Positions 7,643 to 61,584 of a stretch of 64,000 nt of DNA are shown here, one piece after another (the first letter of the stretch is position 1; the number at the start of each line of letters is the position of its first letter). This DNA is from Agrococcus lahaulensis DSM 17612. GTDB lineage: Bacteria > Actinomycetota > Actinomycetes > Actinomycetales > Microbacteriaceae. The stretch is taken from NCBI RefSeq assembly GCF_000425105.1, contig NZ_AULD01000005.1:744001-808000 (forward strand), given 5' to 3'. The translations under genes were made by a program, and so were the position numbers. Under the pieces are notes generated by a model, which saw only the letters and a list, made by a program, of their open reading frames with translations, did not search any database and had not been told where the DNA came from.

Positions 7643-7731
7643 CCGTTGGTCGAGTAGCCGCCGAAGGCGGCGTATCGAGACCCCTCGCTCCCGTCTCGAC
7701 GCGCGCCCTGCGGGCGCTGCTCGACGAGCGG
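7643..7731. repeat. Two opposed copies of the dispersed GTCGAG hairpin repeat
   Basis: First copy (about 7645-7681) reads TTGGTCGAGTA, inner stem GCCGCC-gaa-GGCGGC, then GTATCGAGACC. A second, diverged copy in the opposite orientation (about 7693-7731) reads GTCTCGAC, inner stem GCGCCC-tgc-GGGCGC, then CTCGACGAGCGG. They fill the gap between the convergent crotonase and MarR genes and may serve as a bidirectional terminator. Confidence 0.75.
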
Positions 7732-8356: not shown

Positions 8357-9148
8357 ATGAAGATCGTCGTGCTCTTGAAGCCCGTCCCCGACACGTACGG
8401 GCAGCGCGTGCTCGACCTCGAGACCGGCCTCGCCGACCGCGCGGCGAGCGAGACGGTCATCGACGAGATCGGCGAGCGCGCGCTCGAGGCGGCGCTGCGG
8501 CACGCCGAGCAGGCGGGCGACGTCGAGGTCGTCGTGCTCTCGATGGCGCCGGCGGACTCCCAGTCCGCGCTGCGCAAGGGGCTCGCGATGGGCGCCGCCT
8601 CGGCGGTGCACGTCGCCGACGAGCGGCTCGCGGGCGCCGACTACGTGCGCACCGCCGAGGTGCTCGCCGCGGCCCTGCGGAAGACGGGCTTCGACCTCGT
8701 CATCACGGGCGACGCGTCGACCGACGGCACGGGCGGCGTGATGGCGGCGATGCTCGCCGAGCTGCTCGACGCCCCCGGCATCACGCGGCTCGAGTCGCTC
8801 GAGATCACGGCGGATGCGGTGCGCGGCACGCGCGCGACCGACGGCGGGTCGATGGTCGTCCAGGCGGCGCTGCCGGCCGTCGTCTCGGTGACGGAGGCGC
8901 TGCCCGACCCGCGCTTCCCGGCGCTCCGCGGCATCATGAACGCGAAGAAGAAGCCGGTCGAGCAGCTCACGCTCGACGACCTGCCGCTCGACGAGGTCGG
9001 TGCGGCGCTCGACGAGACGGCCTCGCCGCGCTCGATCATGCTGTCGGTCGCCGAGCGGCCGCCGCGCTCGGCGGGCACCATCATCACCGACGAGGGCGAC
9101 GCGGGCGAGCGCATCGCGGCCTTCCTGGCCGAGCGGAGGCTCGCGTGA
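8357..9148 (+). CDS. etfB: Electron transfer flavoprotein beta subunit
   Basis: 263 residues starting [16 protein letters not shown], the typical EtfB N-terminus, with AAGGGA as ribosome site. The AMP-binding loop region ([22 protein letters not shown] and [22 protein letters not shown]) and [20 protein letters not shown] are conserved. With EtfA it accepts electrons from acyl-CoA dehydrogenases, three of which are encoded in this window. Its stop overlaps the etfA start (GTGA). A TACCGT box at 8317-8322 could be its -10 element. Confidence 0.95.
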
Positions 9149-10110
9149 ACCCCATCCTCGTGCTGCTGCCCGCCGCCCCCGCGGGCGGCCTCATCGCCGG
9201 CACCGCCGAGGCGATCGGCGCGGCCGCCTCCATCGGCACGCCGATCGCGGTCGTGACCGGGCCCGCGGATGCGCTGCCGGAGCTCGCCGAGCAGGCCGCG
9301 TCCTTCGGCGCGGTGCGCGTGCACACCGCGGTCGTCGAGGGCCCCGAGCTCGGCGCGCCCGCGGCAGATGCGTTCGAGGCCGCCGCTCGGCTCGTGCAGC
9401 CCGAGCTCGTGCTCGTGCCCGCGACGGTCGAGGGCCGCGAGGCGGCCGGCCGGCTCGCCGCGCGGCTCCGCGCCCCGATCGCCGCCGACATCGTCGGCGT
9501 CACGCGCGACGAGCAGGGCGTCGTCGTCCGCCACTCCGTCTACGGCGGCGCGTACGACGTCGAGTCCGCCGCGACCTACGGCCCGCTCATCGCGACGATG
9601 CGGCTCGGCTCGATCGACGACCGCGCCGAGGCGGCGACGCCCGACGTCCAGCCCCTCGAGGTCACCGCATCCGGTCGCCGCGCCGCCACGATCGAGCGCT
9701 TCGAGCCGGTGACGCAGGTCTCGACGCGGCCCGACCTCCGCACGGCGAAGCGCATCGTCTCGGGTGGTCGCGGGCTCGGCTCGAAGGAGCAGTTCGCGCT
9801 CATCGAGCAGCTCGCCGACACCCTCGGCGCCGCGGTCGGCGCCTCGCGCGCCGCGGTCGACGCCGGCTACGTCGACCCGAGCGCGCAGGTCGGGCAGACC
9901 GGCACGTCGGTCTCGCCCGACCTCTACCTCGCGGTCGGCATCTCCGGCGCGATCCAGCACCGCGCCGGCATGCAGACGGCGAAGACGATCGTCGCGATCG
10001 ACCGGGATGCGTCGGCCCCGATCTTCGAGATCGCCGACCTCGGCGTCGTGGGCGACCTGTTCACGATCGTGCCGCAGCTCACCGCGGCGCTCGAGGCGCG
10101 GAAGGGCTGA
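9145..10110 (+). CDS. etfA: Electron transfer flavoprotein alpha subunit
   Basis: 321 residues from GTG. The N-terminal domain is diverged, but the C-terminal FAD domain is clear: [81 protein letters not shown] and [11 protein letters not shown]. It holds FAD and, with EtfB, carries electrons to a membrane oxidoreductase. Two nucleotides after its stop begins a b-type cytochrome gene instead of the usual ETF-quinone oxidoreductase. Confidence 0.95.
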
Positions 10111-10112
10111 CG

Positions 10113-12083
10113 GTGGAGCGAGCGGTGGCGGTGCGCCGGGGGCTCCCGCGCGTGCCCGGCGGCGAGCCGTGGCCGCCGGTGTCGGACGTCGCCGTGGCCG
10201 CGGGCGGCGAGTCTTCGCCCGCGCCTTCGTCGAGCAGCGCGCCCGCCCTCTCTCGCTCGTCGAGCAGCGCGCCCGCCCTCTCCCGGTCGTCGAGTAGCGC
10301 GCATAGCGCGCGTATCGAGACGGATCCGCCGCCGCCTCCCGCTGCCGCGGTCCCGGACGTCGCCGACGCGGCACCGGAGCCCGCTCCCGTCGCCTCGCAG
10401 TCGGCGGCAACCACGTCGATCCGCCGCGGCTTGCCCCGCGTCGCTGGCGGGGAGCCGTGGCCGCCCGTGACCGGTGCGGCCGCGGCCACCGCGGCGCCCG
10501 TCGAGCAGTCGACCGCCGAGCCGGCGCGCGGGCCCGCCCCGCTGGGTGGTATCGATTCGTCGCCTGCCGCCCCCGCCGAGCGGCACATCGGTACCACCCC
10601 TGCTGCTGACGCCGCGTCGGGTGGTACCGATTCGTCGGCTGCCGCTCCCGTCGAGCGGCACATCGGTACCACCCACGACGCCGGCGCCGCGATCCGCCGC
10701 GGGTTGCCGCGCGTGCGCGGCGGTGAGCCGTGGCCGCCCGCCGGCGCCGCCGCGTCGAGGAGCGCGCAGAGCGCGCGTATCGAGACGGAGTCGGCGGGTC
10801 TCGATACGCCGCCTGCGGCGGCTACTCGACCAGCGGAGGTGGAGGCGCCTGCCTCCACCCGTTCGTCGAGTAGCGCGCGCAGCGCGCGTATCGAAACGGA
10901 GCCGGCGGGTCTCGATACGCCGCCTGCGGCGGCTACTCGACCAGCGGGGGTGGAGGCGCCTGCGGCGGCTACTCGACCAGCGGAGGTGGAGCCGCCTGCC
11001 CCCACCCGTTCGTCGAGTAGCGCGCAGAGCGCGCGTATCGAGACGGAGGCGAGTGGTCTCGATACGCCGCCTGCGGCGGCTACTCGACCAGCGGAAGGTG
11101 CGGCGACGGCTCGACCAACGCCGGCGGCCAAGCCGACCGCCGCTGCGACGAAGCCCGCGGCCGCAGCCGCCGCTGCCGCCCCGTCGATGCGGCCGGTGAC
11201 GCCGCGCCAGTGGATCGCGACGGGCGTCATCGTCGCGCTCGCGATCATCGGCCTCGCCACGATCGTCGTCGCGATCGCGCGATGGTTCGTCGGCCTCGAG
11301 CCCGTCGCGGCGTTCATGCAGCAGTACTCCGGCACCTACGACCTGCCCGAGGGGGCGCCCGTCGGTCTGCCGCCGTGGCTCAACTGGTCGCACTTCTTCA
11401 ACTCGCTGCTCATCGTGCTCATCATCCGCTCGGGCCTGCAGGTGCGGTACGAGCGGAAGCCCGACGCCTACTGGACCCCTAAGCGCGGCGGGAAGAAGAC
11501 GTCCCTCTCGGTCTGGCTCCACACGAGCCTCGACGTGCTCTGGGTCGTGAACGGGCTCGTCTTCGTCGTGCTGCTGTTCGCGACCGGTCAGTGGATGCGG
11601 ATCGTGCCGACGAGCTTCGAGGTCTTCCCGCACGCAATCTCCGCGGGCCTGCAGTACGTCTCGCTCGACTGGCCGACCGAGCACGGCTGGGTGAACTACA
11701 ACGCGCTCCAGCAGCTCGCCTACTTCACCACCGTGTTCGTCGCCGCGCCGCTCGCGATCATCACGGGCATCCGCATGAGCCGCTGGTGGCCGCAGGGCAA
11801 GGCCGGCCTCGATCGCGCCCTCCCGGTCGAGTGGGCGCGCGCCGTGCACTTCCCCGTGATGCTCTACTTCGTCGTCTTCATCGTGCTGCACGTGCTGCTC
11901 GTGCTCACGACCGGGGCGCTGCGCAACCTCAACCACATGTACGCCGCGCGGGAGGCCGACGACTGGCTCGGCTTCGCGCTCTTCGCGGCCTCGCTGCTCG
12001 TCATCGCCGCCGCGTGGTTCGCCGCGCGGCCGTCGCTGCTCGTGCCGATCGCGCAGCGCTTCGGCACCGTTTCCTCGCGTTGA
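10113..12083 (+). CDS. Cytochrome b561-type membrane protein with a repeat-built N-terminal tail
   Basis: 656 residues from GTG 10113 (GGAAGGG upstream, 2 nt after etfA). Residues about 366-650 form a cytochrome b/b6-like domain: an N-terminal helix, a loop, then helices with histidines in NWSHFFNS, WLHTSLDVLW, AVHFPVMLYF and IVLHVLLVL, suited to bind two hemes as in hydrogenase or formate dehydrogenase cytochromes b. Residues 1-358 are low-complexity and probably disordered. They hold three copies of RRGLPRVxGGEPWPP (near residues 8, 104 and 195) and long stretches that are direct translations of two DNA repeat families. The frame stays open throughout, which suggests selection against stops. 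A role in moving electrons from ETF to quinone is inferred from position only. Confidence 0.8.
   Translation: MERAVAVRRGLPRVPGGEPWPPVSDVAVAAGGESSPAPSSSSAPALSRSSSSAPALSRSSSSAHSARIETDPPPPPAAAVPDVADAAPEPAPVASQSAATTSIRRGLPRVAGGEPWPPVTGAAAATAAPVEQSTAEPARGPAPLGGIDSSPAAPAERHIGTTPAADAASGGTDSSAAAPVERHIGTTHDAGAAIRRGLPRVRGGEPWPPAGAAASRSAQSARIETESAGLDTPPAAATRPAEVEAPASTRSSSSARSARIETEPAGLDTPPAAATRPAGVEAPAAATRPAEVEPPAPTRSSSSAQSARIETEASGLDTPPAAATRPAEGAATARPTPAAKPTAAATKPAAAAAAAAPSMRPVTPRQWIATGVIVALAIIGLATIVVAIARWFVGLEPVAAFMQQYSGTYDLPEGAPVGLPPWLNWSHFFNSLLIVLIIRSGLQVRYERKPDAYWTPKRGGKKTSLSVWLHTSLDVLWVVNGLVFVVLLFATGQWMRIVPTSFEVFPHAISAGLQYVSLDWPTEHGWVNYNALQQLAYFTTVFVAAPLAIITGIRMSRWWPQGKAGLDRALPVEWARAVHFPVMLYFVVFIVLHVLLVLTTGALRNLNHMYAAREADDWLGFALFAASLLVIAAAWFAARPSLLVPIAQRFGTVSSR
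10227..10322 (+). repeat. Three 30-bp units of the GTCGAG repeat inside the cytochrome gene
   Basis: Units start at 10227, 10257 and 10287 with TCGTCGAGCAGCGCGC or TCGTCGAGTAGCGCGC. The first two encode SSSSAPALSR in tandem; the third runs on into the full element with inner arms GCGCGCAT/AGCGCGC and the right arm GTATCGAGAC. The 30-bp period keeps the reading frame. Confidence 0.75.
10544..10674 (+). repeat. Two 56-bp inverted-repeat elements (GGGTGGTACCGAT ends) inside the gene
   Basis: Copy 1 is 10544-10599, copy 2 is 10619-10674, start to start 75 bp. Both end in 13-bp inverted repeats GGGTGGTAyCGAT / ATCGGTACCACCC (perfect in copy 2, one mismatch in copy 1) around a 30-nt centre. They are translated as GGxDSSxAAPxERHIGTT. 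This is a different family from the GTCGAG repeats. Confidence 0.75.
10754..11094 (+). repeat. Alternating GTCGAG repeat copies in both orientations within the gene
   Basis: Forward copies (TCGAGTAGCGCGC...GCGTATCGAGAC) lie at about 10754-10786, 10861-10899 and 11008-11046. Reverse copies (GGTCTCGATACGCC...GGCTACTCGACCAGCGG) lie at 10797-10836, 10908-10947 and 11055-11094, with a truncated one at 10956-10983. Forward copies are read as SSSSAxSARIETE, reverse ones as GLDTPPAAATRPA. Each is in the frame that avoids the TAG of GAGTAG. Confidence 0.8.
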
Positions 12084-47440: not shown

Positions 47441-47533
47441 GCCCCTCCGCCCGTTGGTCGAGTAGCCCGGCCGCGGGCCGCCCCTCCGCCCGTTGGTCGA
47501 GTAGCCCGGCCGCAGGCCGGGCGTATCGAGACC
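47441..47533 (+). repeat. Tandem duplicate of the dispersed GTCGAG hairpin repeat
   Basis: A 39-bp unit starting GCCCCTCCGCCCGTTGGTCG occurs at 47441-47479 and 47480-47518. The first lacks the right arm. The second is complete: TTGGTCGAGTA, inner stem GCCCGGCC-gca-GGCCGGGC, GTATCGAGACC, ending at about 47533, just before the TACCGT box of the next gene. Confidence 0.75.
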
Positions 47534-61503: not shown

Positions 61504-61584
61504 CCGCTGGTCGAGCCGCCGGCCCTCCGGGCCGGCGAGTCGAGACCATGAGACGTCGGATGCGCCGACCTCCTCGACCAGCGG
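61504..61584. repeat. GTCGAG-family repeat pair with 12-bp outer arms
   Basis: CCGCTGGTCGAG (61504-61515) and CTCGACCAGCGG (61573-61584) are exact inverse copies. Inside lie the inner stem CCGGCCC-tcc-GGGCCGG and the right arm GTCGAGACC. This is a diverged member of the dispersed family, in which TA of GAGTA is missing. Confidence 0.7.

Follow-up and report, generated by a model that had tools for sequence, protein, structure and literature searches.

REP-like palindromes between copies of an apparently older conserved motif in the predicted tail of an Agrococcus membrane cytochrome

A membrane cytochrome gene of Agrococcus lahaulensis DSM 17612 opens with a long N-terminal tail. Short palindromes of a chiefly intergenic family are read in frame there, in the stretches that separate copies of a conserved motif, apparently with no disruption of the gene. 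As an instance of in-frame REPs, a known phenomenon, the case is unusually large, and it stands out by its occurrence in an actinobacterium and by the position of the repeats between conserved motif copies. The tail itself predates the repeats, which were added later as linker filler and did not build it. Repeat invasion is the probable history: scattered palindromes enter genes, survive in linkers and multiply by tandem duplication.

The case offers a set of closely related genomes, some with palindromes that are probably recent arrivals in genes and others free of the insertions. The question raised by Rickettsia palindromic elements (RPEs), namely whether such insertions are mere survivors or new protein material, becomes testable outside Rickettsia. 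A second outcome is a short, strongly conserved and repeated motif tied to genes of the electron transfer flavoprotein (ETF).

Gene context

The window is the whole stretch of DNA that was analysed, 64,000 nt of contig NZ_AULD01000005.1 (positions 744,001 to 808,000), from a genome of 2.68 Mb in 13 contigs. The gene product is a b561-type membrane cytochrome encoded in an etfB-etfA-cytochrome cluster:

8357..9148, + strand: etfB-like gene (ETF domain, PF01012)
9145..10110, + strand: etfA, electron transfer flavoprotein alpha (PF00766, PF01012)
10113..12083, + strand: membrane cytochrome gene with long N-terminal tail (open reading frame, 656 aa)
11187..12083, + strand: membrane cytochrome domain (PF01292 match, residues 421-607)

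The cytochrome gene starts with GTG, which is separated from the etfA stop by 2 nt. The match to PF01292 (b561-type cytochrome) scored 33.4 bits and passed the curated cut-off of 30.1, and the cytochrome is 97% identical to its counterpart in Agrococcus pavilionensis RW1. A search of solved structures returned no PDB chain for the protein at E<=0.01. Disorder is predicted across residues 1-360, with pLDDT of 28-48 in a weak model (mean 47.7, 14 sequences).

Repeats and motifs of the tail

The REP-like unit is about 33 nt long and consists of GTCGAGTAGC and GTATCGAGAC on either side of a short palindromic stem that varies in sequence. Most units measure 31-39 nt and some 41-43 nt; their stems are palindromic and differ in sequence. 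GTAG abuts the stem and is not terminal, as conserved letters stand before it. Units are frequently paired in opposition across a gap of about 11 nt, and the pairs are tandemly repeated, to a maximum of 12 units per site. The window holds nine copies at <=1 mismatch, seven of which lie within the cytochrome gene. In 20 Markov shuffles, the background averaged 0.0 per window at <=2 mismatches and 0.2 at 3. The elements of the tail are as follows:

10128..10193, + strand: conserved motif, copy 1, VRRGLPRVPGGEPWPP
10229..10268, + strand: pair of REP-like half units, with left arms 30 nt apart at 10229 and 10259
10289..10321, + strand: REP-like unit, translated SSSSAHSARIET
10416..10481, + strand: conserved motif, copy 2, IRRGLPRVAGGEPWPP
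10545..10598, + strand: second palindrome family, copy 1, translated GGIDSSPAAPAERHIGTT
10620..10673, + strand: second palindrome family, copy 2, translated GGTDSSAAAPVERHIGTT
10689..10754, + strand: conserved motif, copy 3, IRRGLPRVRGGEPWPP
10754..10786, + strand: REP-like unit, translated ASRSAQSARIET
10798..10830, - strand: REP-like unit, translated GLDTPPAAATRP
10810..11103, + strand: two tandem 147-nt copies, 90% identical, carrying REP-like doublets
10865..10897, + strand: REP-like unit, translated SSSSARSARIET
10909..10941, - strand: REP-like unit, translated GLDTPPAAATRP
10968..10977, - strand: half unit of the REP-like element
11012..11044, + strand: REP-like unit, translated SSSSAQSARIET
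11056..11088, - strand: REP-like unit, translated GLDTPPAAATRP

The GTCGAG copies reported for this tail in the preliminary description correspond to the seven full units and the half units, all in frame. Its 56-bp inverted repeat was likewise recovered, as a 54-nt element in two copies with arms GGTGGTACCGAT and ATCGGTACCACC (0 in 10 shuffles), and three further copies lie between genes at two places elsewhere in the genome. The 147-nt tandem duplication had not been described; on its own, it makes the repeat copies stay in one frame. Of the tail's 1075 nt, at least 704 have a match at another place in the genome, and one such stretch covers about 139 codons (10744-11160).

Units of the same REP-like family also occur between genes in the window:

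7649..7725: intergenic REP-like doublet, with perfect arms in 7649-7681 and 3 mismatches in 7693-7725
47496..47532, + strand: intergenic REP-like unit, arms perfect

Two of three intergenic GTCGAG sites proposed earlier (7643-7731 and 47441-47533) are accounted for in this way. The third, at 61504-61584, is not established, since it has 4 mismatches and five shuffles give 1-3 such matches per window.

Translation of the tail

The reading frame from 10113 to 12083 is open, and the repeats within its first 358 codons are read without stops, as had been observed; IETEPAGLDTPPAAATR is an example of a peptide within residues 1-358. An open frame was rejected as proof of coding, because three of the six frames are stop-free over the tail. 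In the cytochrome gene's own frame, only 8 of 2000 Markov shuffles were open.

Relatives within the genus bear directly on the start. All nine orthologs with an intact tail have an ATG or GTG within about 8 nt past the etfA stop, and the two nearest relatives have ATG at the exact position of this gene's GTG. Between the tails of this gene, G069 and G073, dN/dS is 0.00-0.12 in the motifs and 0.50-0.70 in the linkers, the linker alignment being less certain than that of the motifs. Together, these sequence comparisons strongly indicate that the tail is translated, with a start at 10113.

The opposite reading, in which translation begins at 11187 and the kilobase before it is a repeat-rich spacer that is not translated, had been allowed for in the preliminary description. 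A home-made gene caller based on codon usage does place the start there, which follows from the atypical codon use of the tail, and many N-terminal REPs have been suggested to be extragenic because translation starts downstream (PMC3733652). Nevertheless, a start at 11187 is very unlikely: the start position is shared among relatives, the in-frame motif is conserved at dN/dS 0-0.12, and nine of 12 tails in the genus are intact.

A conserved motif and the age of the tail

Alongside the repeats, the tail contains three copies of [ILV]RRGLPRxxGGEPWPP, which are not intergenic repeats and were absent from the preliminary description. Among 80 named loci with a cytochrome domain (L052-L131), 70 carry one to four in-frame copies, and 179 copies were tabulated. 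The search fixed RRG[LMI]P[RKP] and left the other positions free. Among these free positions, 174 of the 179 copies retain the second G, 175 the W and 177 the P after it. The ten named loci without a motif include contig ends, a frame change, a gap, cases where no upstream etfA was found, and a few true absences.

In an order-wide sample, the motif was present in 15 of 149 genomes. Of 28 loci fetched from 14 motif genomes, etfA and the cytochrome occurred together in 26, and each remaining locus had one of the two. A tail of this kind separates the two genes in Microbacteriaceae and in other families of the order. No further motif copy was found in this genome, either with 150 of 273 candidates scored or in a stricter look with 57 of 57 scored, and a text search on RRGLPR found no description of the motif in the open-licence literature. 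Gene order provides the basis for a tentative suggestion, that the motif may dock the electron transfer flavoprotein.

The repeats have a far narrower distribution. Units at <=3 mismatches occur in the tail region of four of six Agrococcus loci and in none of 74 loci outside Agrococcus. The tail is older than the repeats, since motif-bearing tails exist in genera whose tails have no such units. The earlier proposal of repeat expansion within a disordered linker stands in part: repeats of an intergenic type are in frame, but they did not build the tail itself.

Variation within Agrococcus

The genus set comprised 24 genomes, this one included. A cytochrome ortholog was found in 12 and the motif in 13, the additional genome (G075) having the motif at a contig end. 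Nine of the 12 orthologs have intact open tails. In G079 (L046; listed 8% contamination), the frame changes after motif 1 and before the cytochrome; G049 has a run of N within the tail. In G062 (L142, L143), 0.8 Mb separate the motif tail from the cytochrome domain. The tail neighbours etfA and is fused to the end of a gene that corresponds to a transglutaminase-like gene in the present genome; the cytochrome domain adjoins a helicase gene, called HrpA-like from its resemblance to L195. Stops or frameshifts in relatives had been singled out beforehand as evidence against coding; most orthologs are free of them, and G079 is an instance of a frame change. Together, G079 and G062 may mean that an unbroken link between tail and cytochrome is not essential, or that the assemblies are wrong at the repeats.

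Repeat content varies between orthologs, as had been anticipated, and the cytochrome domain is conserved. For example, among orthologs with cytochromes 97% identical, the distance from the etfA stop to the cytochrome is 359, 336 and 291 codons, with 7, 3 and 2 units, respectively. Units at <=4 mismatches were detected upstream of the cytochrome in eight of the 12 genus orthologs; at this threshold, none were found in G060, G065, G049 (gap) and G062 (split).

A comparison with sampled units of three genomes bears on whether tails are seeded by the repeats of their own species; it shows no clear preference overall and counts against such seeding in this genome. This genome's tail units scored 0.879 against G063 units and 0.851 against units of their own genome, those of G071 gave a near tie (0.939 against 0.932), and those of G063 alone fitted their own genome (0.817 vs 0.792 and 0.620). 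This comparison is biased, because similarity to the G071 tail was the criterion by which the G063 and G071 samples were picked. A cytochrome-domain tree for counting independent gains was set aside, with four of 13 inner branches well supported.

The repeat family across the genome

A covariance model of the unit (R1, E<=0.01) places at least 132 REP-like units in 69 clusters of this genome, a lower bound because 150 of 12272 candidates were scored. Under a home-made codon model, 64 of the 69 clusters were classified as intergenic (51), at gene edges (8) or inside genes (5); the other five lie in the window (4) and on contig C11 (1). The five intragenic clusters may be an undercount, as the codon model misses the cytochrome tail. 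The elements look strongly depleted from genes, given that the coding fraction of the regions is 0.85. REPs have been defined as mostly extragenic, palindromic, short (14-40 nt in E. coli) and present in many copies with a shared consensus (PMC12306157). The intergenic majority, the palindromic units of mostly 31-39 nt and the matches to one shared model agree with each of these features.

The five genes with an internal element encode a NERD/UvrD-type helicase, protoporphyrinogen oxidase, an alpha/beta hydrolase-AMP ligase fusion, HrpA and CydDC. Four of these carry the element in a stretch that separates one domain match from the next; the fused CydDC (L213), for instance, has a REP-like unit after the CydD match (6-468) and ahead of the CydC match (534-925). 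The exception is protoporphyrinogen oxidase, whose element falls within a domain match. In-frame units occur at this oxidase (L170, L217-L240) in five of 24 genus loci, all at one loop; one of the 24 loci stops short of that loop. The oxidases of the two closest relatives, G069 and G073, have no units. Either the loop has been hit repeatedly, or old insertions have been lost, including in these relatives.

Two further observations concern these genes. A REP-like translation (RSSSS...GLDT) is found in the HrpA helicase both here (L195) and in G062 (L143), at similar positions. In the alpha/beta hydrolase-AMP ligase fusion (L180, 656-3094), an in-frame REP doublet is followed by five DYSTNGG copies.

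Reading phase and a proposed route into genes

In tails, '-' units are read in one phase (GLDTPPAAATRP type) in 18 of 18 cases, and '+' units are read as the SSSSAQSARIET type in 11 of 16, relative to the cytochrome frame. Of the remaining '+' units, three (G063) are in another phase, as are two in G079 relative to the cytochrome; worked out by hand, the latter two match the usual phase when the motif is taken as reference. The two usual phases recur in four of the five other genes here, including protoporphyrinogen oxidase and HrpA. One of the three '+' phases contains a TAG stop in the common unit type, in keeping with the TAG noted earlier in another frame. The pattern fits the removal of stop-bearing, basic or hydrophobic phases. 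No probability is attached to the bias, since the copies are tandem duplicates of 147 nt, a multiple of three.

The proposed route starts from Agrococcus genomes that hold scattered REP-like palindromes, chiefly intergenic. A palindrome or doublet would occasionally insert into a gene. Insertions that break the frame or the fold would be removed, and those in linkers in a stop-free phase would persist. Surviving units would then multiply by tandem duplication in lengths that are multiples of three. The tail would need only its motifs, and the linkers between them would tolerate much change. We infer that insertions are filtered by tolerance and not by benefit, and that the tail would face the cytosol, its motifs perhaps docking ETF and the repeats serving as neutral spacers.

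The same phase pattern could instead reflect adaptive protein spacers, in which a Ser/Ala/Pro-rich translation lengthens or stiffens an arm and the phase is selected. The consistency of each orientation in tails and the recurrence of both phases in protoporphyrinogen oxidase, HrpA and others are what one would then expect. However, the phase counts are not independent, as units are tandem duplicates and coupled in doublets; counted by gene, four of five others share the phases and one differs. The TAG stop already closes one '+' phase in the common type, and other genera carry the tail without the REP-like repeat. An adaptive role is accordingly considered improbable.

A role as RNA or DNA would make translation incidental, with strong hairpins in the etfBA-cytochrome message governing how stable the mRNA is or how much cytochrome is made relative to ETF. 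The tail mRNA does fold far more strongly than shuffled sequences (z -10.7), in contrast to an equal stretch of the cytochrome (z +0.84), and REPs have been proposed to act on mRNA (PMC3733652). However, two of the nine intact genus tails (G060, G065) have no unit at <=4 mismatches, tails outside Agrococcus have none at <=3, and the frame stays open through the linkers, where dN/dS is below 1. This role, too, seems unlikely, to about the same degree.

Repeat invasion with filtering by tolerance can be extended further. A palindrome family without a recognised transposase might act as a standing supply of linkers, with loops and tails re-seeded across species in stop-free, hydrophilic phases, and with the spacing of ETF-docking motifs tuned by repeat gain and loss. 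We regard this extension as rather doubtful.

Relation to known repeat families

A 2013 survey by Di Nocera et al. described GTAG and CGTC REPs as short palindromes, often in opposed pairs, mostly intergenic and in some cases inside open reading frames (PMC3733652). The Agrococcus elements share this arrangement, including their intragenic, translated copies. In the survey's account, GTAG repeats occur in Proteobacteria, Cyanobacteria, Chloroflexi and the PVC group, and CGTC repeats in Proteobacteria, Chlorobi, Bacteroidetes, Spirochaetes and Thermotogae (PMC3733652). The survey lists many REPs read in frame in Proteobacteria, Verrucomicrobia and Rickettsia, and in two Xanthomonas species REPs had entered recB at much the same site (PMC3733652). 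The survey's main text does not mention Actinobacteria. The largest REP-encoded regions it gives span 43-82 aa (PMC3733652), compared with about 139 codons here, a looser measure that counts matches elsewhere in the genome. A further difference from these REPs is that the repeats here lie between conserved motif copies.

REPs in this phylum are not new, since a RepRanger table counts them in Actinomycetota, including an Arthrobacter (PMC12306157). These are likened to the Agrococcus elements by phylum and not by sequence, and the RepRanger main text does not contain the word intragenic (PMC12306157). RPEs, reviewed as elements of about 150 bp in ten families (PMC10969869), are also dispersed palindromes in frame in unrelated proteins; they are set apart by description, in size and families.

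Inverted doublets about 11 nt apart, tandem clusters and GTAG beside the stem are shared with REPINs and BIMEs that have a RAYT. In contrast to those systems, the elements here have extra conserved flanks outside GTAG, and no Y1_Tnp match (PF01797; RAYT) was found in the 24 genus genomes, five of them contaminated or incomplete; among 14 controls, 5 gave a match. Mobilisation by a RAYT was rejected on this basis. A search of the open-licence literature found nothing on a REPIN with RAYT in actinobacteria.

For the cytochrome itself, a possible parallel is EtfD of Mycobacterium tuberculosis, which presumably belongs to a protein family other than this b561-type cytochrome. The common role would be electron exit from ETF to the membrane, with gene order as what points to it here; EtfD has been described as the membrane partner of EtfBA (PMC8593149). 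In some genomes, the whole etf-cytochrome cluster is present more than once. Second or further etfA-cytochrome loci were observed in G061 (two, among L049-L051) and G074 (one), and these carry the motif or a shortened form of it.
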